A DNA stretch of 58,457 bases from Opitutaceae bacterium (GTDB taxonomy: Bacteria > Verrucomicrobiota > Verrucomicrobiia > Opitutales > Opitutaceae), in contig NZNM01000156.1 of assembly GCA_002694885.1 (NCBI GenBank), positions 1 to 58,457 on the forward strand, in the 5' to 3' direction. The notes below the pieces were generated by a model, which had not been told where the DNA came from, searched no databases, and saw only the letters and a program-made list of their open reading frames with translations. This document shows, piece by piece, positions 32,898 through 43,780 of this stretch (the first letter of the stretch is position 1; each line of letters starts with the position of its first letter). The position numbers and the translations under genes were made by a program.

Positions 32898-34577
32898 TCA
32901 ATAGCCCACCGCCTGGCCATCTTTACGGCTTTCGGATGCTCCGGTGTAAACGCCTGACTCCGGATCTCGCCAAATTCCCTGGTACCCGCCAAATAGGCCT
33001 TTACCAGAGATCATGTCAATTTGATGGCCCATCGCCGCCAAATCGGCTCGGGCGACTTCGCTAAATCCATTTTCTAGATACACCGTTCCACCTTCCGTCA
33101 TTTCACGGGGCGACCCGAATGGCTGTGAGGAACGAACATGATTTACGCGGGGAGCGTCGCCCGCCTCTTGCAGATTCATGCCGAAATCCTTTAAATTGAC
33201 GATAACTTGGACGTGACCTTGAGGCTGCATGCTTCCCCCCATCACTCCGAAAGCCATCAACGGCCTACCTCCCTCTGTCACGAATGCGGGAATAATCGTA
33301 TGGAAAGGGCGCTTTCCAGGCCGGTATTCATTCGCATGCCCCGGTTGGAAATTGAACGAAGCTCCTCGATTCTGAAATCCAAACCCAAGCTCCGGAATGC
33401 ATACGCCCGATCCCATGCCAATAAAATTGCTCTGTATCAGCGAAACCATCATGCCGCTAGAGTCTGCCGCGCAGAGATACACGGTGTCTCCTCGTTCCAA
33501 GATTCCCGGACTATAGTCTAGGGCCGCTTTCTGGGGATTGATTAGAGTCCGCTTCTCGGTTGCATAATCTTTGGAAATTAGAGTTTCCACTGGCGCTTGA
33601 GAAAAGTCCGGATCCGCATAGAACCTCGCTCGATCTTCGTAAGCTAGCTTTTTTGCCTCGATGAATGCATGCAAATGCTTGGCCGACCCGAATCCAAAAC
33701 TAGAAAGATCGTAGCCTTCTAGAATATTAAGCATCTGAAGGGTGGCTATTCCTTGGCCATTGGGAGGCAATTCCCAGATATCCCAACCTCGATAATTTGT
33801 CGATACCGGACCAATCCAATTACCCTCGTGACGGGCTAGATCTTCGTAAGACAAATAAGCTCCCAGGCGTTTCATCTGTTTGTCGATCACTTGGGCAATT
33901 GGGCCTTCATAGAAGGCATCTCGACCATTCTCCGCGATCGAAGCTAATGTATCGCCAAGGGCAGGATTCTTCCAAATATCACCCTTTTCCGGATACCTTC
34001 CTCCTGGAGCAAATGTATCTAACAAGCCAGGACAGCTGCTTGGGTCCCTGCTTCGCGACTCAATTTCTCTCTTCCACGATCTCGCTATAATCTCGGGAAC
34101 AGGATGCCCGTCAAAGGCGTATCCAATTGTGGGCTTCAGAATCCTCTCCATTGGAAGATTGCCGAATTCCCCATGAAGTTGGTACCAGCCATCTACGCAC
34201 CCAGGGGTGGATAGGGAGTATCTGCCAAATAACGGGATTTCATCTGTGATCCCTTCTTCCTCGAAAGTCTCTTTAGAAAGGCCCATCGGTGATCGGCCAC
34301 TTCCATTAAATCCATGCAATCGCTGCGTCTTAGGGTCCCAAACGATAGCGAAGAGGTCACCCCCGATGCCATTACTGACAGGCTCCATCAAGCCCAGAGC
34401 CGCATTAGAGCCAATGGCCGCATCCATCGCAGTACCCCCATCCCTGAGAATTTCCAATCCAATCTGAGATGCCAAAGGATGACTTGTGGCCACAATTCCA
34501 TGCCGGGCAAAAATTTCCGAACGTGATGCCCGGTGCCCGCTAGCTGAAGGATCTACTCCTATCAACTCCCTATCCAT
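32898..34577 (-). CDS. ggt: Gamma-glutamyltransferase / glutathione hydrolase-like
   Basis: 559 residues from the ATG at 34575-34577. GGT is made as one chain that cuts itself before a Thr, which then removes gamma-glutamyl groups from glutathione and related peptides. Features: GIVATSHPLASQIGLEILRD, GGTAMDAAIGSNAALGL, GGDLFAIVWD, the processing site GDTVYLCAADSSG (Thr as predicted nucleophile), IQSNFIGMGSGV and SSMxP-like region MGGSMQPQG. There is no signal peptide, unlike E. coli Ggt, so it resembles the cytoplasmic YwrD-like branch. The start overlaps the stop of the dipeptidase gene by 8 nt, so the two are translated together. Confidence 0.88.
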   Translation of the reverse strand: MDRELIGVDPSASGHRASRSEIFARHGIVATSHPLASQIGLEILRDGGTAMDAAIGSNAALGLMEPVSNGIGGDLFAIVWDPKTQRLHGFNGSGRSPMGLSKETFEEEGITDEIPLFGRYSLSTPGCVDGWYQLHGEFGNLPMERILKPTIGYAFDGHPVPEIIARSWKREIESRSRDPSSCPGLLDTFAPGGRYPEKGDIWKNPALGDTLASIAENGRDAFYEGPIAQVIDKQMKRLGAYLSYEDLARHEGNWIGPVSTNYRGWDIWELPPNGQGIATLQMLNILEGYDLSSFGFGSAKHLHAFIEAKKLAYEDRARFYADPDFSQAPVETLISKDYATEKRTLINPQKAALDYSPGILERGDTVYLCAADSSGMMVSLIQSNFIGMGSGVCIPELGFGFQNRGASFNFQPGHANEYRPGKRPFHTIIPAFVTEGGRPLMAFGVMGGSMQPQGHVQVIVNLKDFGMNLQEAGDAPRVNHVRSSQPFGSPREMTEGGTVYLENGFSEVARADLAAMGHQIDMISGKGLFGGYQGIWRDPESGVYTGASESRKDGQAVGY

Positions 34578-35946
34578 GCTTCGCAATGGAGAAGAGAATC
34601 TTCTTCGAAGCGTCTATCCCGCGATTCAGCACGTCGAGGTTCATGCTCTCGTTTGGTGCATGCAAATTGTCCTCGGGGAGGAATAGGCCTATCATAACGG
34701 AATCCAGTCCGAGAATGCTCTTGAAGTCGGCGATTATCGGGATGCTTCCGCCCTCTCGTAAAAACAATGGCGAGCATCCAAAAGATTCATCAATTGCCTT
34801 TGTTGTGGCTTCAAATGCGTAGACCAGGCGACCCGGCATATCGGCTGGCGAGTTTGGGCGGCCGGGGGGCGTGACCAGGTAAGGAGCGCCTTCATGGCCC
34901 ATCTCCACATTTATGGAAACACCAGGGGGCGCCCGATCCAGAACAGCCTGTTTGACACGCTCTCCTATCACTTTCGGATCCTGGTTTCCCACAAGTCGGC
35001 AAGAAATTTTTGTCATCGCCTTTGACGGGACAATCGTCTTGCTACCTTCTCCCTGATAGCCCCCTCCTATTCCGTTAAACTCCAGGGTCGGAAGATAGCG
35101 CGTAGCTTCGAATGGCGTGTATCCCTCTATTGGATGCAAAGCTCCAACTCCCAAGGTCTTTTTGTACGCTTCCTCGTCGGCTCCCAGCTTCGCGAGTTCA
35201 TCTCGTTCCCAATCTTCAACATCAGTAACGCCTTCGTAGAAGCCATCGACCGTTACGCGATTGTTTTCATCGTGTAGCGATGCGCAAATTTCGCACAAGG
35301 CCTGAACGGGATTGTAAACCGCTCCCCCATGAAGCCCCGAATGCAAATCTGCGCTAGGACCTTGAACCTGCACATCTAAAACTGCGATGCCTCGCAATCC
35401 TACCGTAACGACGATTTGCTTTTCCGTAGGGCTTAAGGTATCGGAAAGCAACACCAGATCCACATCCGAAAATGAGTCCTTCCTCGATTCTAGGAAAGGC
35501 TTGAGGCTGGGACTTCCAATTTCCTCCTCGCCCTCGATGAGAAACGTAATTCGCAAGGGCAACTCCGGATCTTCCTCCAATGCTTGAGCGACCGCGGCGA
35601 TATGAGCCATTTGCGGCCCCTTGTTATCCGCAGCTCCTCTAGCAAAGAGACGTCCATCCTTAACCACGGGATCAAAGGGATCGCTGCGCCATTCTTCCAG
35701 CGGGTCAGCCGGCTGCACGTCGTAGTGTCCGTATATTAGAACGTGGGGCCACTCCGGATTTCCTTCTCGGCGAGCGAGCACTATTGGATGCATAGGCGTA
35801 TTCACCACTTCAACACTTAGACCCATATCGGCAAACAGGGATTCCAAGAATCGTCGCGACCCATCCATTCCCTCTTTAAAATTCGAGTCTGTTGACACGC
35901 TTGGGAACCGCAAATGCTCCTTCAATTTCTCGATAGGATCGAACAT
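34570..35946 (-). CDS. M20 family dipeptidase (CNDP/PepV-like)
   Basis: 458 residues. Motifs are VLIYGHYDVQP (metal His and catalytic Asp), ARGAADNKGP (bridging Asp), LIEGEEEIGSPS (general base Glu and metal Glu), LLSDT and GGSIPIIADF; the insert domain has DLHSGLHGGAVYNP. This is the carnosinase/DUG1-like branch that cleaves dipeptides such as Cys-Gly. Its stop codon overlaps the ggt start, which links it to breakdown of the Cys-Gly left after glutathione loses its gamma-glutamyl group. Start is the ATG at 35944-35946. Confidence 0.88.
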   Translation of the reverse strand: MFDPIEKLKEHLRFPSVSTDSNFKEGMDGSRRFLESLFADMGLSVEVVNTPMHPIVLARREGNPEWPHVLIYGHYDVQPADPLEEWRSDPFDPVVKDGRLFARGAADNKGPQMAHIAAVAQALEEDPELPLRITFLIEGEEEIGSPSLKPFLESRKDSFSDVDLVLLSDTLSPTEKQIVVTVGLRGIAVLDVQVQGPSADLHSGLHGGAVYNPVQALCEICASLHDENNRVTVDGFYEGVTDVEDWERDELAKLGADEEAYKKTLGVGALHPIEGYTPFEATRYLPTLEFNGIGGGYQGEGSKTIVPSKAMTKISCRLVGNQDPKVIGERVKQAVLDRAPPGVSINVEMGHEGAPYLVTPPGRPNSPADMPGRLVYAFEATTKAIDESFGCSPLFLREGGSIPIIADFKSILGLDSVMIGLFLPEDNLHAPNESMNLDVLNRGIDASKKILFSIAKHG

Positions 35947-36083: not shown

Positions 36084-39000
36084 ATGAAAAAACTGCTCGC
36101 CGCCAATAGAAGTGAAATTGCCGTCCGCATTTTTCGGAGCGCCACGGAACTCGGTTGTCGAACCGTCGCCCTGTACGCTCATGAAGATCGCTTCGGCGTT
36201 CATCGATTTAAAGCTGACGAGGCCTACCTGCTAGCCCGTGGCAAAGGTCCTGTAGCGGCCTATCTAGATATCGATACCATCATCGAGATCGCCAAAGACA
36301 ACGATGTCGAACTCATCCATCCTGGATATGGATTCCTTTCCGAAAACGCGGATTTCGCTCAAGCATGCGAGGACAATGGCATTAATTTCGTCGGGCCCAA
36401 CCCCAAGCTGCTCAAGCGGATGGGCGATAAGATCGAGGCTCGCAAGATTGCCGACAAGGCTAACGTTCCAACGCTACCAGGCACTCAGGATCCCGTTTCT
36501 GACCCGCGCGAAGCTCGCAAAATAGCCAAGAAAATCGGTTTTCCGCTAATTATTAAGGCTGCATTTGGTGGTGGCGGTCGCGGCATGCGAGTCGTCAAGG
36601 ATCCTAAAGATTTGGACTCCTTTTTGGAGGAGGCTCAAGGAGAAGCGCAGAGGGCTTTTGGGAACCCAGCAGTCTTCCTGGAACGCTACATTCAACGAGC
36701 CAAGCACATCGAAGTCCAGATACTCGGCGACAAGCACGGTAATGTCGTTCACTTGCACGAACGCGATTGCTCGGTACAGCGCCGGCATCAAAAGGTCATT
36801 GAAATCGCTCCCTCCGTTGGCTTGCCCGATGACGTTCGGAAGGAACTCTGCGATGCCGCCGTCAAAATCGCTCAGTCTATCGGCTATTACAATGCCGGAA
36901 CTGTCGAATTCCTGCTCGACCTAGATAGCCACGATTGGTTTTTCATCGAAATGAATCCTCGTATTCAGGTCGAGCATACCGTTACCGAAGTTATCACAGG
37001 CATAGATATCGTTCGAGCTCAGATACTGATCGCGGAGGGCCGTTCCTTGCATGGCAAAGAGATCGGCATTCCCAAACAGAATGCCATTCCACGAAACGGC
37101 GTGGCCATTCAGGCCCGCATCACTACGGAAGACCCGGAAAGAAATTTCGCTCCTGACTACGGCAAGATCGTCAACTACCGAAGCGCCGCGGGATTCGGCA
37201 TTCGTTTGGACGGAGCCATGGGCGACACGGGTTCCGTTATAACGCCTTACTACGACTCTCTTCTCGTAAAGCTAACTGCATCAGCCAGAACTTTCGAGCT
37301 CGCCATCCAACGCATGGTTCGAGCCTTGAATGAAATGCGTATCCGCGGTGTAAAGACGAATATACCGTTTATCGAGAATGTCATAACTCACCCGATATTC
37401 GATGCCGGAGACGCGACGACAACGCTGATCGATACGACACCCGAGTTGTTCAATTTCAGACGCAGGCGCGATCGGGCTACAAAACTTCTGAAACTGCTAG
37501 GCAATACTATCGTTAATGGAAACGACCAGGTCAAAGGTCGACCGGTTCCAGAAATGAATCTGCCTGTAATCGTCCCTCCGCATGATCCTACTAAAAAAAT
37601 TCCAAAGGGCACCAAGGACTATCTAGACAAGCATGGTCCTGAGAAATTCGCTGAATGGACACGCAAGCAAAAGCGGCTCTTGATTACCGATACCACCATG
37701 CGGGACGCCCACCAGTCTCTACTGGCGGCCCGCATGCGTAGCTATGATCAACTGCAAGTAGCCGACGCTATCGCTTATCGGGGAAGCGAATTGTACAGTC
37801 TCGAATGCTGGGGAGGCGCCACTTTCGACACCACCATGCGGTTCCTCTATGAGAACCCATTCAAGCGACTTCGTCGACTGAGAGAACGCATACCTAATAT
37901 TTGTTTTCAAATGCTGCTCCGAGGAGCCAATGGAGTCGGGTACTCAAATTATCCAGACAACGTCATCCGAGGGCTTGTGAAGCATTCCGCGGAAGCGGGT
38001 ATGGACATATTCCGCATTTTCGATTCCCTCAACTACTTGCCGAATCTTCGAGTCGCCATGAAGTCGGTTCGAGAAGACACGAATTCCGTGTGCGAAGCCA
38101 CGATCTGCTACACCGGCGACATCCTGGACCCCAAACGAGACAAGTACTCACTAAAATACTACGTAGATATGGCCAAGGAGCTCGTGAAAATGGGAGCTCA
38201 CATCATTGCCATCAAGGACATGTCCGGCTTGTGCACGCCTCACGCGGCCTTTAAGCTTGTGAAGGCGCTTCGATCGCAAGTCGGTGTTCCAATCCACTTT
38301 CACACCCATGACTCGTCGGGAATCGCTGGCGCCTCGGTAATCAAGGCAGCAGAAGCCGGCGCGGACGTCGCTGATCTAGCAGTCTCTTCGCTTTCTGGAC
38401 TGACGTCTCAGCCTAACCTGAATTCCATGATTAAGGCGCTCAAAGGCAATCCGCGAGATACAGGGCTGGATTTGGAGTTCTTCAACGAATTATCCATTTA
38501 TTGGGAGGCCGCGCGTCAGTATTACGGCCCATTCGACACGAGTCCGAAATTTGGGAGCGCGGAAGTCTACACGCATGAGATGCCGGGTGGCCAATACACC
38601 AATCTCCGCGAACAGGCCCGACAGCTAGGACTCGGCTCTCGATGGACGGAGGTCGTTCGCTATTACCACGCCGTCAACGAATTGCTTGGGGACATCGTCA
38701 AGGTCACCCCTTCGAGTAAAGTAGTTGGCGATCTCTCCATGTTCTTGCTCACTAAAGGAGTTGAGCCAGAAGACCTCGTGAATCTCGAACCGGGTACCGC
38801 TTTCCCGGAATCCGTTGTCGACATGCTATCGGGAGGGCTCGGTCAACCAATCGGAGGCTGGCCCAAAAAGGTGCAGAAGGTCGTCCTCGGCGATCGCAAG
38901 CCTTTCCGTGGACGGCCTGGTACCCGGGCCGAGAAGATCGACTTGGAAGCGACGCGAAAGGAAATTTCCGAAAAGTACAAGCGGAAGATCAATGACGACG

Positions 39001-39521
39001 ATCTCTACGCTCACTTGATGTACCCAACTGTGTTCGCGGATTTGGTCAAGTACGTCAGCGAATACGGCCACGCTCGGGTTTTGCCCACGCCCGTATTTTT
39101 CTATGGACTCAATCCCGGAGAGGAAATCTCGGTCGAGATTGAGCAAGGCAAAGTTCTGATCGTGAAACTGATCTACGTTAGTGACCCTAATGAAGATGGC
39201 GAACGAACGTTGACCTTCGAGCTAAATGGACGAGCTCGAGAGTGCGTTATCATGGACCGATCGATCAAATCCAAGTCCAAGCGTCGGGAAAAAGCGGATC
39301 CTGCCAACAAAAAGCAAGTAGGCGCCCCAATTCCGGCAATGGTCAGCAGCGTATCCGTTACGGTGGGACAACAGGTCAAGAAGAAGGACAAATTGATTGT
39401 CCTCGAAGCGATGAAAATGCAGACAACCGTTTATGCTCTCGAGGACGGATTCGTTGACCGAATTGAAGTCTCAGCTGGCGACCAGGTGGAAAGCAAAGAC
39501 TTGCTGATAGCTCTGCGATAG
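36084..39521 (+). CDS. pyc: Pyruvate carboxylase (single-chain)
   Basis: 1145 residues, as usual for the alpha-4 type. It makes oxaloacetate from pyruvate, bicarbonate and ATP. Domains in order: biotin carboxylase (about 1-450: LLAANRSEIAVRI, KAAFGGGGRGMRVV glycine-rich loop, ERDCSVQRRHQKVIEIAPS, EMNPRIQVEHTVTE); carboxyltransferase (about 520-800: ITDTTMRDAHQSLLAARMR, ECWGGATFDTTMRFL, FHTHDSSG metal site); allosteric/tetramer linker; biotin carrier (from about 1075) with VLEAMKMQT, biotinylated at K1111. The ATG at 36084 directly precedes the KKLLAANRSEIA start. It is divergent from the dipeptidase gene. Confidence 0.97.
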   Translation: MKKLLAANRSEIAVRIFRSATELGCRTVALYAHEDRFGVHRFKADEAYLLARGKGPVAAYLDIDTIIEIAKDNDVELIHPGYGFLSENADFAQACEDNGINFVGPNPKLLKRMGDKIEARKIADKANVPTLPGTQDPVSDPREARKIAKKIGFPLIIKAAFGGGGRGMRVVKDPKDLDSFLEEAQGEAQRAFGNPAVFLERYIQRAKHIEVQILGDKHGNVVHLHERDCSVQRRHQKVIEIAPSVGLPDDVRKELCDAAVKIAQSIGYYNAGTVEFLLDLDSHDWFFIEMNPRIQVEHTVTEVITGIDIVRAQILIAEGRSLHGKEIGIPKQNAIPRNGVAIQARITTEDPERNFAPDYGKIVNYRSAAGFGIRLDGAMGDTGSVITPYYDSLLVKLTASARTFELAIQRMVRALNEMRIRGVKTNIPFIENVITHPIFDAGDATTTLIDTTPELFNFRRRRDRATKLLKLLGNTIVNGNDQVKGRPVPEMNLPVIVPPHDPTKKIPKGTKDYLDKHGPEKFAEWTRKQKRLLITDTTMRDAHQSLLAARMRSYDQLQVADAIAYRGSELYSLECWGGATFDTTMRFLYENPFKRLRRLRERIPNICFQMLLRGANGVGYSNYPDNVIRGLVKHSAEAGMDIFRIFDSLNYLPNLRVAMKSVREDTNSVCEATICYTGDILDPKRDKYSLKYYVDMAKELVKMGAHIIAIKDMSGLCTPHAAFKLVKALRSQVGVPIHFHTHDSSGIAGASVIKAAEAGADVADLAVSSLSGLTSQPNLNSMIKALKGNPRDTGLDLEFFNELSIYWEAARQYYGPFDTSPKFGSAEVYTHEMPGGQYTNLREQARQLGLGSRWTEVVRYYHAVNELLGDIVKVTPSSKVVGDLSMFLLTKGVEPEDLVNLEPGTAFPESVVDMLSGGLGQPIGGWPKKVQKVVLGDRKPFRGRPGTRAEKIDLEATRKEISEKYKRKINDDDLYAHLMYPTVFADLVKYVSEYGHARVLPTPVFFYGLNPGEEISVEIEQGKVLIVKLIYVSDPNEDGERTLTFELNGRARECVIMDRSIKSKSKRREKADPANKKQVGAPIPAMVSSVSVTVGQQVKKKDKLIVLEAMKMQTTVYALEDGFVDRIEVSAGDQVESKDLLIALR

Positions 39522-39534
39522 CCTGAAAGCCGCG

Positions 39535-40959
39535 CTACAATTTCGCCAATCCCGATCCTGTCGCTACTAAACCAATTCCCAATTCGTTCGAGTGATCGAC
39601 CAATTCAGGCTCTCGATTCCCATCCAGTCCCGGATGAATCACGAGGGACGCTCCTAAGCGTTGAGCAGCTTCTAGCGAGTCGGGACCGGCAAGGTCCTCG
39701 TCAAATACGAAGATAGCGTTTTCCAAGCGGTCTCTTGTTGTCGAGAAGGCCTTCTCGAAATCCAATTGGCTTGTCATGTGGGACGCCAAGCGAACAACGC
39801 GTTCCTGGGACACGGCCAAACAAGCGGATGATTGCAAGTGGCGGACAATTTTTACCCCAAACATCATCGTCTCCCAATCATCTACCAATGGTTGAACTGA
39901 GCTAACAATGCGCCACGTCATGGGATTTATCGGAATGCGATTCTTGTCTTGAACCAACCAGCCCCCGGCAATGGAGCGAATCTCTTGCAACGACTCATAA
40001 CCCAGGCCCTCTTTGCTTGCGACAAGTCGGATACCTGGCTCGTCATCAAAGCCCAAGAAGTTCGGAGCCACGATCGAGGAAACGCTCGCTACACCATGCT
40101 TCTCTAGTGTCCCGTAGTCTAGAGCGCCATTAACAACAAGCATGGAGGCGCCTCTATCCTCCCCCTCCTCAGAATTAATATTTTGAAGCGCCTCGCTCAA
40201 TTGGCCCGAGCTGGATCCTGCTAACAGTTGGCCCTTGGATACCAGCAAAGCGGTCGGTTTCTCAAATTCTCCAATAGCAAAGGTCGCCAACGTTAAATCG
40301 AGCAAACATGCGTAGTCTGGCTCAGGCCCGGATAGCAATTCGAAGTGCTCGCTAAACCTTCCATAGATGGCAGCCTTCTGATGAGCCGCGACTCCCTGCA
40401 ACGTACAGTCCCGCTTCACGGAAAAATACAGCGTCTTCGGGTAGCCGCTTAACGCGTCTAAATCTGGAGTTTCACCCGATTGAGACTCCAGAAACTGGGC
40501 AACCGCAGCGTCAAATACAGCTACGGCATGCAAAGCGTCACAGGCTTGTTGAACCCTGAAGGGCTCAGGCAACCTCCCCTGGTTCGCTGCAAGCAAATCG
40601 ACTACGCTTGAATATAACCTAGAGTCACCCACTACTCCAATCGCGACTGGATTCAGAGCAGCGCCTCTTATCAAACCTACGATCTCATGGTCCATCTCCG
40701 CGAGGGCTTTTTTCCACGGGTGCCCTCTATGGCCGCCAATGGTCGGGCTGGCAAAATTCGCTACCACTAGCGATACGCCCCCATCCCGAATCATTTTTTC
40801 CGCATACGCGAAATCGACGGTCTCGCATTCCTCCAACAACGCCGATGGTGCCAATGATTCTACTGTTATCAATTGGTAGTCGAACGTTTCAACCAGCTTC
40901 CTCGCGAATTCAACCACTCCTGACGGGTCTCTCGTGGCCAGTAACGCTGTCCTTTTCAT
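39535..40959 (-). CDS. PurH-like protein lacking both catalytic motif sets
   Basis: 474 residues from the ATG at 40957-40959; an in-frame TTG 28 codons upstream is the alternative. Overall it aligns along its length with PurH (IMP cyclohydrolase / AICAR transformylase). It starts MKRTALLATRDPSGVVEFAR like PurH, then SLVVANF (VVVNLYPF), EIVGLIRGAALNPVAIGVVG (DIGGPxMIRAAAKN), AHQKAA (NPHQKAA), IVAPNFL, GGWLVQD, FGVKIVRHLQSSA (WKVVKHVKSNA), FDED, and LVIHPGLDG (IQPGGS). The catalytic KHTNPCG reads VSKGQLLAG (residues 240-248), the GRVKTLHP segment is missing, and the ends GIGAGQxSR and RHFRH are absent. It is probably a catalytically dead, regulatory or structural homologue. It is convergent with pyc. 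Confidence 0.7.
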   Translation of the reverse strand: MKRTALLATRDPSGVVEFARKLVETFDYQLITVESLAPSALLEECETVDFAYAEKMIRDGGVSLVVANFASPTIGGHRGHPWKKALAEMDHEIVGLIRGAALNPVAIGVVGDSRLYSSVVDLLAANQGRLPEPFRVQQACDALHAVAVFDAAVAQFLESQSGETPDLDALSGYPKTLYFSVKRDCTLQGVAAHQKAAIYGRFSEHFELLSGPEPDYACLLDLTLATFAIGEFEKPTALLVSKGQLLAGSSSGQLSEALQNINSEEGEDRGASMLVVNGALDYGTLEKHGVASVSSIVAPNFLGFDDEPGIRLVASKEGLGYESLQEIRSIAGGWLVQDKNRIPINPMTWRIVSSVQPLVDDWETMMFGVKIVRHLQSSACLAVSQERVVRLASHMTSQLDFEKAFSTTRDRLENAIFVFDEDLAGPDSLEAAQRLGASLVIHPGLDGNREPELVDHSNELGIGLVATGSGLAKL

Positions 40960-41090: not shown

Positions 41091-41885
41091 ATGACTTCAA
41101 GAACTACCCAGACACTAAAAATCGGAGATCGAGAATTCGACTCTCGCCTCCTCGTGGGAACGGGGAAATTCAGTAGTAACGATTCCATGAAAGAGGCGCT
41201 GCGGGCCTCGGGATCCGCTCTCGTAACCGTGGCCCTCAAGCGGGCGAACCTAGATTCTTCGGAAGATCCCTTTGCCAACATACTAGATTTTCTGGAAACG
41301 GAACGCTATCTCATTCTGCCCAACACGGCAGGAGCCATGAATGCCGAGGAAGCCGTCAGAATCGCTAGATTGGCGGTCGCCGCAGGCTTGCCGAATTGGG
41401 TAAAACTAGAAATTCATCCGGACCCAAACTACCTGCTTCCAGATCCTATTGAGACCTTGAAAGCCACCGAGACTCTCGTCGCTGAAGGTTTCACCGTCCT
41501 CCCGTACATAAACGCGGATCCCGTACTTGCTCAACGGCTCCAAGACGCCGGCGCGGCAACCGTGATGCCACTCGGTTCGCCAATAGGAAGCAATCAAGGA
41601 TTGGATACACGATCGCAGATCGAAATAATCGTCGAGCAAGCCAGAGTTCCCGTTGTTGTGGACGCCGGAATAGGCGCTCCTTCTCATGCAGCTGAAGCGA
41701 TGGAACTGGGAGCGGATGCCGTTTTAATCAATACCGCGATTGCCATCGCCAATGACCCTCCCGCCATGGCCAGAGCTTTTGCCAAGGCCGTCGAGTCTGG
41801 CCGCGAGGCTTACGAGATCGGCCTAGGATCCACATCGAAAAGAGCAGAGGCCAGCAGCCCGCTAACCGCGTTTCTCGGGGCTTGA
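41091..41885 (+). CDS. thiG: Thiazole synthase
   Basis: 264 residues. ThiG joins deoxyxylulose-5-phosphate, dehydroglycine and ThiS-thiocarboxylate sulfur into the thiamine thiazole ring. Signature segments are [56 protein letters not shown] (Schiff-base Lys), [12 protein letters not shown] and [20 protein letters not shown]. Start is ATG at 41091. It leads thiG-thiH-thiS; the gap to thiH is 61 nt. No TPP riboswitch is visible in the short upstream region. Confidence 0.96.
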
Positions 41886-43182: not shown

Positions 43183-43382
43183 TGAAAATTTTCGCTAACG
43201 ACTCTGAGTTTGAAGTAAATTCCGGATGCAGCCTATCGGAATTCTTGGAATCCATAGGATATCAGATTGGACTGGTTGTCGTGGAGAGAAATCGCCAGGC
43301 TCTATCGCCATCGGAAGCGACCAATACTATCCTGGAAGCTGGCGACCGCCTCGAAATCGTCAAGATCGTTGCCGGGGGCTAA
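43182..43382 (+). CDS. thiS: Sulfur-carrier protein for thiazole synthesis
   Basis: 66 residues from the ATG at 43182, which shares a base with the thiH stop. The ubiquitin-like fold is shown by LSEFLESIGYQIGLVVVERN, ILEAGDRLEIVKIVAGG, with the C-terminal Gly-Gly that is adenylated and thiocarboxylated. It feeds sulfur to ThiG. ThiF and ThiI are not in the window. apaG follows 8 nt downstream. Confidence 0.95.
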   Translation: MKIFANDSEFEVNSGCSLSEFLESIGYQIGLVVVERNRQALSPSEATNTILEAGDRLEIVKIVAGG

Positions 43383-43390
43383 GCAACAGG

Positions 43391-43780
43391 ATGAGCCAGT
43401 CTTCGCTACTAGTGGGCCTAAAAGTCACGCTCGATAATCTCGAGTACCACTACGGGGGACCTAGAGTGCCCGAAGAAACCCCTCACGTTTTCGTTTACTA
43501 TATCACCATCGACAACCAATCCGAACGACGTGTAAAACTACTGGGCCGCAAATGGATCATATCTTCGCCCGATGGGGAGAAACTCGTGGTCGAGGGCGAC
43601 AAGATCGTTGGAAACGAACCGGATTTGGCCCCTGGAGAAACCTTTTCATACAATAGCTTCCATCTCTCAGCTTCAGACGCCTCGGCTGTCGGCAGCTTCC
43701 ATGGAATTGATGAGGATGGAAATCGCATACATACGCGAATTCCTCGGTTTGCCATGCGCATCCCCGACCAAACTTGCTAG
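43391..43780 (+). CDS. apaG: ApaG-domain protein
   Basis: 129 residues from the ATG at 43391, 8 nt after thiS. The single ApaG domain (DUF525, fibronectin-like beta sandwich) is recognised by VFVYYITIDNQSERRVKLLG, RKWIISSPDGE, VEGDKIVGNEPDLAPGE and FSYNSFHLSASDASAVGSFHG. ApaG in E. coli is linked to Co2+ resistance and diadenosine tetraphosphate metabolism, but its chemistry is not settled. Its placement behind thiS is probably operon hitch-hiking; a longer frame upstream overlaps thiS and is not the true start. Confidence 0.9.
   Translation: MSQSSLLVGLKVTLDNLEYHYGGPRVPEETPHVFVYYITIDNQSERRVKLLGRKWIISSPDGEKLVVEGDKIVGNEPDLAPGETFSYNSFHLSASDASAVGSFHGIDEDGNRIHTRIPRFAMRIPDQTC

Follow-up and report, generated by a model that had tools for sequence, protein, structure and literature searches.

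An apparently displaced PurH homologue without its catalytic residues, retained in four related genera of Opitutales

The PurH homologue and its former active sites

The stretch analysed here, referred to as the window, comprises 58,457 nucleotides of contig NZNM01000156.1 (assembly GCA_002694885.1) from an Opitutaceae bacterium, and at 39535..40959 on its minus strand lies the gene for a catalytically dead, displaced PurH of 474 amino acids. The gene is a single open frame of 474 codons that begins with an ATG at 40959 and ends with a stop codon at 39535-39537, and the plus-strand frame is riddled with stops. A preliminary description had placed the gene at the right coordinates and had read its product as an end-to-end homologue of PurH without catalytic residues, probably a pseudoenzyme kept by selection; the checks it proposed were a profile search, a structure prediction, a listing of active-site residues, a survey for a separate intact purH, and the ratio of nonsynonymous to synonymous substitution rates (dN/dS) across relatives.

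Homology to PurH extends across both domains of the window protein, bearing out the end-to-end relationship: the PF01808 profile matches at 9.9e-27 (94.6 bits against the Pfam gathering score of 25), two NCBIfam PurH models match with E values of 2.1e-34 and 2.1e-32, and the M. tuberculosis PurH in the PDB matches at 5.9e-14. Both equivalog cut-offs for PurH in NCBIfam are nevertheless missed by a wide interval (119.2 against 402 bits and 112.7 against 528 bits), whereas the canonical PurH of a relative scores 712.9 and 651.7 bits on the same models. Judged by its sequence, the protein is homologous to PurH, yet by NCBI's own threshold it is not a functional PurH.

Structure prediction also places the protein within the PurH fold. 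An AlphaFold monomer model built from a nine-sequence alignment has moderate confidence (pLDDT 71.7, pTM 0.54), and a fold search of the PDB with this model returned PurH chains as all of its top 11 matches, with Z scores of 22.7-27.4 and a Foldseek E value of 5.1e-26. Overlays on these 11 chains span 397-425 residues with a root-mean-square deviation of about 19 A; a different placement of the two domains in a model of this confidence is the presumed cause. The former inosine monophosphate (IMP) cyclohydrolase domain, which is MGS-like, corresponds to residues ~1-140 (40540..40959, minus strand), as indicated by alignment and by fold matches to ForH (residues 2-163) and to MGS domains (~1-128); its GRVKTLHP loop is deleted and its phosphate-loop residues are replaced.

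The extent of the catalytic loss is seen in an alignment of 17 dead homologues, the window protein included, with 20 canonical PurH proteins of the same order, in which we followed 18 catalytic or substrate-contact positions, each kept in at least 19 of the 20 canonical proteins. The human residue numbers and roles are those that we take these positions to have, apart from the ones listed in a published passage. Asp125 (D90 in the window protein) is the sole one of the 18 that is retained in all 17 dead homologues. The GRVKTLHP loop with Arg64, Lys66 and Thr67 is deleted in 17/17; Lys137, Arg207, Tyr208, Lys266, Asn431, Phe541, Arg588, Phe590 and His592 are retained in none; and His267 is retained in one, Tyr104 in four, and Asp546 in four, among them the window protein. 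Residues K66, Y104, D125 and K137, and the contacts of 5-aminoimidazole-4-carboxamide ribonucleotide (AICAR; numbered one higher), are listed in a passage of PMC3261824. Of the four cyclohydrolase residues the window protein keeps D125 alone, and it does not have the AICAR transformylase set (KHTNPCG, KSNA, GxGQxxR, PFxD, RHFxH): KHTNPCG is lost, KSNA reads QSSA, and GAGQxxR and RHFxH are gone. The residue losses given in the preliminary description thus hold against 20 canonical proteins, including the deletion of the GRVKTLHP segment, and losses of like kind are found in 16 further homologues, so that 17 of the 18 positions are not conserved across the set.

Catalytic cells of the alignment are retained in 26/306 instances, compared with 1034/3012 at other positions conserved in canonical PurH; one homologue (L026) is truncated at a contig end, its absent N-terminus standing as gaps in the alignment, and 14 of its cells are excluded from the 3012. 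Permutation over random sets of positions gives p 0.0023, or p 0.0057 when the deleted loop is left out, and the loss is therefore concentrated on catalysis.

These losses bear on the idea, also raised in the preliminary description, of a purine-ribonucleotide-binding regulator. Such a protein would bind AICAR, its formylated product (FAICAR) or IMP unreacted and regulate purine synthesis; dead PurH has the fold of a protein that binds purine nucleotides, and the equivalents of Asn101 and Asp125 (N68 and D90) are kept in 17/17. Set against this are the deletion of the R64/K66/T67 loop throughout, the nine contact positions kept in 0/17, H267 kept in 1/17, and the degradation of the SxSDK and STGGT segments in the dead homologues. 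The loss of most phosphate and base contacts speaks against a sensor working at the old sites; with the residues that hold substrate and phosphate mostly lost from both sites, to judge from the roles we assign to them, the proposal is weakened and we consider it improbable.

Apparent replacement of both activities and descent of the old gene

The survey for a separate intact purH, by PF01808 and MGS searches, found none in the genome from which the window comes, which has instead two REPLACEMENTS. PF01808 matches in two places, the dead PurH and a transformylase-only open reading frame (ORF) on another contig, which covers positions 78-311 of the profile and is 387 residues long from its likely start. 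This ORF encodes a stand-alone AICAR transformylase (PRK07106) that scores 551.5 bits on NF005492 against a cut-off of 415 and has all six catalytic motifs; its best PDB matches are eukaryotic enzymes, with human ATIC at 1.9e-114. The MGS domain occurs in one frame only, of 1086 residues, which from its length is probably carB. A third contig encodes a PurO-like protein that belongs to PF07826 (143.9 bits against a cut-off of 28.1), and a profile of six PurO-like proteins matches the PDB PurO 2ntk at 0.0015, with VSNG and TPRI segments in common. The PurO-like proteins form a tight family, with 62-72% identity to the copy in this genome (loci L042/L092 and L087-L091; L129, 65%), and they may represent a bacterial PurO branch that has no curated equivalog, since this copy lies well below the archaeal score and has no other NCBIfam match.

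The same arrangement recurs in the family. In a sample of 252 family genomes PurO is found in 22, confined to four genera (g1, 11 genomes; g9, one; g13, two; g115, eight), and canonical PurH was not detected in any of these 22 among the matches listed. Dead PurH is present in 17 of the 22, the transformylase-only gene in 18, and both in 15, so that all 17 genomes with dead PurH carry PurO and 15 of them the transformylase. Carriers include Opitutales bacterium SI072_bin25, Opitutaceae ANT-100, Puniceicoccaceae bacterium K14 and Opitutaceae IP29b_bin.74. The catalytic motifs are intact in 17 of the 18 stand-alone transformylases; the eighteenth (L033, G022:C69) has one in-frame TAG and no single frame, reflecting either an assembly error or decay. 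PurO was not found in the other 230 family genomes; PF01808 matches in 216 of these, with a best E value stronger than 1e-80 in 203 and a weaker one in 13. In the order-wide sample of 273 genomes PurO occurs in six, one of which, G101, lies outside the four genera.

Three side observations concern single genera or genomes. Four genomes of genus g57 (G055, G071, G087 and G121) have two PF01808 matches each, of which the dead-PurH profile finds one, at canonical strength; the second may be a stand-alone transformylase and could mark an intermediate state. In G133 the two PF01808 matches resemble one gene split over two contigs. G005, an assembly of 20 contigs that is 97% complete, has PurO and dead PurH, and no PF01808-family transformylase was detected in it.

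The neighbourhood identifies the dead gene with the original purH. An M20 peptidase gene (34570..35946, minus strand) is an ancestral purH neighbour that marks the purH locus across the order: it lies within the fetched stretch at 12 of the 17 dead-gene loci (it adjoins the dead gene in five, is separated from it by a single ORF in five and lies farther off in two) and shares the fetched stretch with canonical purH at 8 of 14 loci of relatives. An ApaG-domain gene (43226..43780, plus strand; its listed start is probably too early) is likewise found beside canonical purH in some relatives, adjoining it in three. The ORFs at the compared loci were picked mechanically, and at the canonical loci L073, L077 and L078 purH is masked by overlapping longer frames, which can only lower the synteny count. 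Between dead purH and the M20 gene the window has a complete pyruvate carboxylase gene (36084-39521; 1698.5 bits), an arrangement seen at none of the other dead-gene loci compared. Recurrent neighbours of the dead gene are M20 peptidase, ThiG/ThiH-like, ApaG, CcsB and HemA genes; ThiH, HemA, PilT, pyruvate carboxylase and M20 peptidase score above curated cut-offs, and ApaG and CcsB exceed the Pfam cut-off but not those of the NCBI equivalogs. The labels ThiG and DapA are ones that we assume for these neighbours, and no NCBIfam ThiG model matches 41091-41885.

In midpoint-rooted trees the 17 dead proteins form one clade with support of 100/100, and the M20 neighbours of 14 genomes (13 with a dead gene found, plus G006) form one clade with support of 100/99 relative to eight from canonical loci. 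Synteny and trees together point to vertical descent of the dead gene, and the simplest history suggested by them would be one displacement in a common ancestor followed by conversion of purH in situ; we infer that the replacements came first and the decay second. The protein singled out by the preliminary description is thus the product of the original purH, displaced but still at its old locus, and its two activities have apparently gone to other genes. A paralogue or partner of an intact PurH is rejected, with no intact PurH found in the genome and the dead gene at the ancestral purH locus; the partner-subunit role that the preliminary description had left open is not supported, no intact PurH having been detected in this genome or in the 22 PurO-bearing genomes of the family.

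Two further explanations are weighed by this distribution. Residual IMP cyclohydrolase activity at a rebuilt site, kept beside PurO, would account for the invariance of the Asp125 equivalent in 17/17, and the reaction needs little catalysis according to a passage of PMC3261824; with the K66 loop deleted in all 17, K137 kept in none and Y104 in four, the phosphate loops degraded and PurO present in every carrier, it is very improbable. Alternatively, the protein could serve the stand-alone transformylase or PurO as an accessory subunit that holds a two-enzyme complex together. The co-distribution with PurO (17/17) and the transformylase (15/17) is what such a subunit would lead one to expect; this pattern, however, follows descent in one clade and may represent a single event, none of the stretches fetched around transformylase or PurO genes contained the dead gene, and G005 has dead PurH with no detected transformylase. 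We regard an accessory role as unlikely.

Several results count against displacement of PurH, which we none the less consider very likely together with its retention as a pseudoenzyme. On the archaeal PurO equivalogs the PurO-like protein misses both cut-offs (34.5 against 150 and 26.2 against 158 bits), and its sequence alone matches no PDB sequence at 0.001; for these reasons its activity as an IMP cyclohydrolase is put no higher than probable. Dead PurH was not found in 5 of the 22 PurO genomes (G002, G004, G006, G008 and G392), nor the transformylase in four (G002, G003, G005 and G392); these exceptions are drafts of 85-97% completeness and so uninformative, and real loss is possible. In G006 and G008 the sequence breaks off within the M20 gene, on the flank expected to hold the dead gene. 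G101, outside the family, has PurO alongside canonical PurH, its PurO match (G101:C357:13-588) lying at a contig end in a 370-contig draft. Finally, the tree program warns of long branches meeting at the base of the dead clade.

Selection, shifted constraint and a possible binding role

A displaced gene is generally expected to be lost. The dead purH frame is open in all 17 genomes of the four genera, one copy being truncated at a contig end, although between genera the synonymous sites have reached saturation. By the Nei-Gojobori method, dN/dS of the dead gene in the two closest pairs of g1 is 0.137 (dS 0.18) and 0.085 (dS 1.09), these being the two of 36 pairs used (dS up to 1.1), most of the others being synonymously saturated; in g115 it is 0.068-0.316 for the 10 of 28 pairs in which the proportion of synonymous differences (pS) is below 0.72. 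The M20 neighbour gives 0.081 for the first g1 pair and 0.01-0.05 in g115 (eight of the ten pairs being finite), and within g1 identity to the window protein is 42-47% compared with 74-75% for the M20 peptidase. The dead gene is less constrained than its M20 neighbour and far from neutral.

A slowly decaying, functionless pseudogene would explain the faster evolution relative to the M20 gene (identities as above; dN/dS 0.07-0.32 against 0.01-0.05). It is contradicted by a frame that stays open in 17/17 genomes of four genera despite synonymous saturation between them, by dN/dS well under 1 in the comparable pairs, and by the concentration of constraint in particular stretches, and we hold it to be extremely improbable. 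The suggestion of a pseudoenzyme kept by selection is supported instead: the protein is a homologue without catalytic residues, the loss is common to 17 homologues, and dN/dS is 0.07-0.32.

The constraint has also moved. Residues 141-180 (40420..40539, minus strand) are among the best-conserved parts of the dead homologues, and residues 321-360 (39880..39999, minus strand) include N345, P346, W349, Q356, P357 and V359, invariant in 17/17. Conservation in 20-residue windows of the dead set is 0.69 at 141-160, 0.61 at 161-180, 0.76 at 321-340 and 0.61 at 341-360 (overall 0.455), compared with 0.63, 0.36, 0.63 and 0.47 in the 20 canonical PurH proteins of the order. As the order-wide comparison favours the narrower dead set, a control matched to the family was run with 10 canonical proteins, giving 0.80, 0.51, 0.76 and 0.66 (overall 0.787). 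Expressed in standard deviations from the mean window, the four windows lie at +1.1 to +2.1 in the dead set and at +0.1 to -2.4 in the canonical proteins of the family, where residues 141-180 range from average conservation to the lowest; this relative shift persists when one dead protein per genus is used. Constraint has shifted to 141-180 and 321-360 in the dead proteins, which suggests a binding role. The stronger statement, that these stretches are better conserved in absolute terms than in working PurH, fails against the 10 family proteins except at 161-180.

The main rival is a neofunctionalized enzyme, in which the PurH scaffold with a remodelled pocket would carry out a new reaction in the manner of ForH, a PurH homologue with another job, in formycin biosynthesis. 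ForH is a close fold match to the N-terminal domain (Z 19.0, 2.3 A, 158 residues), and among the 53 positions invariant across the 17 dead homologues are D90, R98, R183, E326, R328, D338, R373 and H374; D90, R98, H374 and S377, however, do not vary in the 20 canonical PurH proteins either and may therefore be structural. Hydrophobic, aromatic or small residues occupy 16 of the 26 newly fixed positions; the other 10 carry polar or charged ones, including Arg373, where canonical PurH has Lys. Trp82 and Trp181 are each newly fixed in 16/17, with Val in place of Trp181 in the window protein, and Trp349 in 17/17. The new residues look more like repacking of a surface or core than like a new catalytic cluster, and the recurrent neighbours (M20, ThiG/ThiH-like, ApaG, CcsB and HemA) suggest no single pathway. 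A new enzyme is on balance unlikely, and it is a serious competitor.

What we propose is that, in the ancestor of the four related genera, the two final steps of purine synthesis passed to a stand-alone AICAR transformylase and an IMP cyclohydrolase of the PurO type, a takeover that would have freed the bifunctional PurH from catalysis. The old purH stayed at its locus while both active sites were dismantled and the two-domain fold was retained, and its product would act by binding, presumably as a dimeric scaffold or assembly protein that keeps a protein contact PurH had before the loss, through a surface that would include residues ~141-180 and 321-360. On the evidence, shape and contacts are the likelier reasons for which the protein has been kept. 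A non-catalytic binding role is put forward tentatively, with slightly less than an even chance of being correct, an estimate lowered a little by the family-matched control, and dimerization is likewise only probable.

Other results speak against a binding role. Set beside the canonical proteins of the family, the dead set is better conserved at 161-180 alone (0.61 against 0.51); 321-340 is level, and 141-160 and 341-360 fall short. The invariant polar residues D90, R98, D150, E158, R183, Q194, E326, R328, D338, R373 and H374, with the ten polar or charged new positions, may indicate a new catalytic site. Both conserved stretches are in part of low confidence in the AlphaFold model (161-203 and 328-341); such segments would fit a structure that becomes ordered only in a dimer or complex.

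It is conceivable, and on the whole doubtful, that PurH has an old second job separable from purine synthesis and that this clade has kept only that job. One version, by analogy, would be a dormancy role in binding the ribosome or a translation factor, as in Methanosarcina acetivorans. The ribosome hibernation factor family PF02482 is present in 16 of the 17 dead-PurH genomes and in 12 of 13 canonical ones, giving no sign that dead PurH stands in for it; replacement of the usual hibernation factor is thus unsupported, and what speaks for the ribosome version is the M. acetivorans precedent. The lone carrier with no PF02482 match is the genome of the window (G000), possibly because of a gap in a 165-contig draft.

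The wider interest lies in an essential, widely conserved enzyme that has apparently lost both activities to other genes and is still retained under purifying selection in four genera. With catalysis removed from PurH by evolution, this clade makes the question of what else PurH does a testable one, and if the second-job reading were true it would provide a natural separation-of-function PurH. There is also a warning for annotation: the dead genes score as AICARFT/IMPCHase above the Pfam cut-off, and the real pathway is probably the transformylase with PurO.

Comparison with known systems

Among the papers listed in searches of an open-access library on inactive PurH, on displaced pseudoenzymes, on monofunctional AICAR transformylases, on ForH and on PurH of Verrucomicrobia and Opitutales, we found no description of this protein. 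Canonical PurH (ATIC; PF01808 and PF02142) shares with the dead protein its end-to-end homology, its fold and, at 8 of 14 loci of relatives, its place beside the M20 gene; it differs in that 17 of 18 catalytic positions are not conserved in dead PurH, whose substrate-binding segments are degraded and whose scores fall well below the equivalog cut-offs. ForH (PDB 6nko) is, like dead PurH, derived from PurH, with the N-terminal fold match at Z 19.0, and its chain in 6nko has 196 residues, whereas dead PurH keeps both domains.

The division of the last purine steps between PurH1 alone and PurO is known from Halobacteria and others (PMC3261824, PMC6797443), and PurO-like genes are reported in 22 of 1266 bacteria in a part of PMC6797443. 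This archaeal split resembles the genome of the window in combining a transformylase alone with a PurO-type cyclohydrolase, and it differs in that the relevant passages of the two papers describe no retained full-length PurH remnant (PMC3261824, PMC6797443). Homologues of purine-pathway proteins that lack essential active-site residues have been noted in archaea, where 21 proteins, 2.8% of those inspected, bear names that imply activity, according to a section of PMC3261824. These are like dead PurH in being purine-synthesis homologues without catalytic residues; the active-site residues of archaeal PurH1 and PurH2, however, are typically conserved, and that section describes no displaced and retained PurH (PMC3261824).

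A known parallel for a non-catalytic, structural role comes from M. acetivorans, in which, as set out in a portion of PMC12605026, a PurH dimer and aEF2 bridge two 50S subunits with the active sites empty. This ribosome dimerization factor (PDB 9ou7) matches the fold of dead PurH at Z 23.2. The M. acetivorans protein is also the purine enzyme of that organism and its partner aEF2 is an archaeal factor, whereas dead PurH, known here from its sequence, is without catalytic residues: it is a doubly dead pseudoenzyme, retained after the displacement of an essential enzyme.

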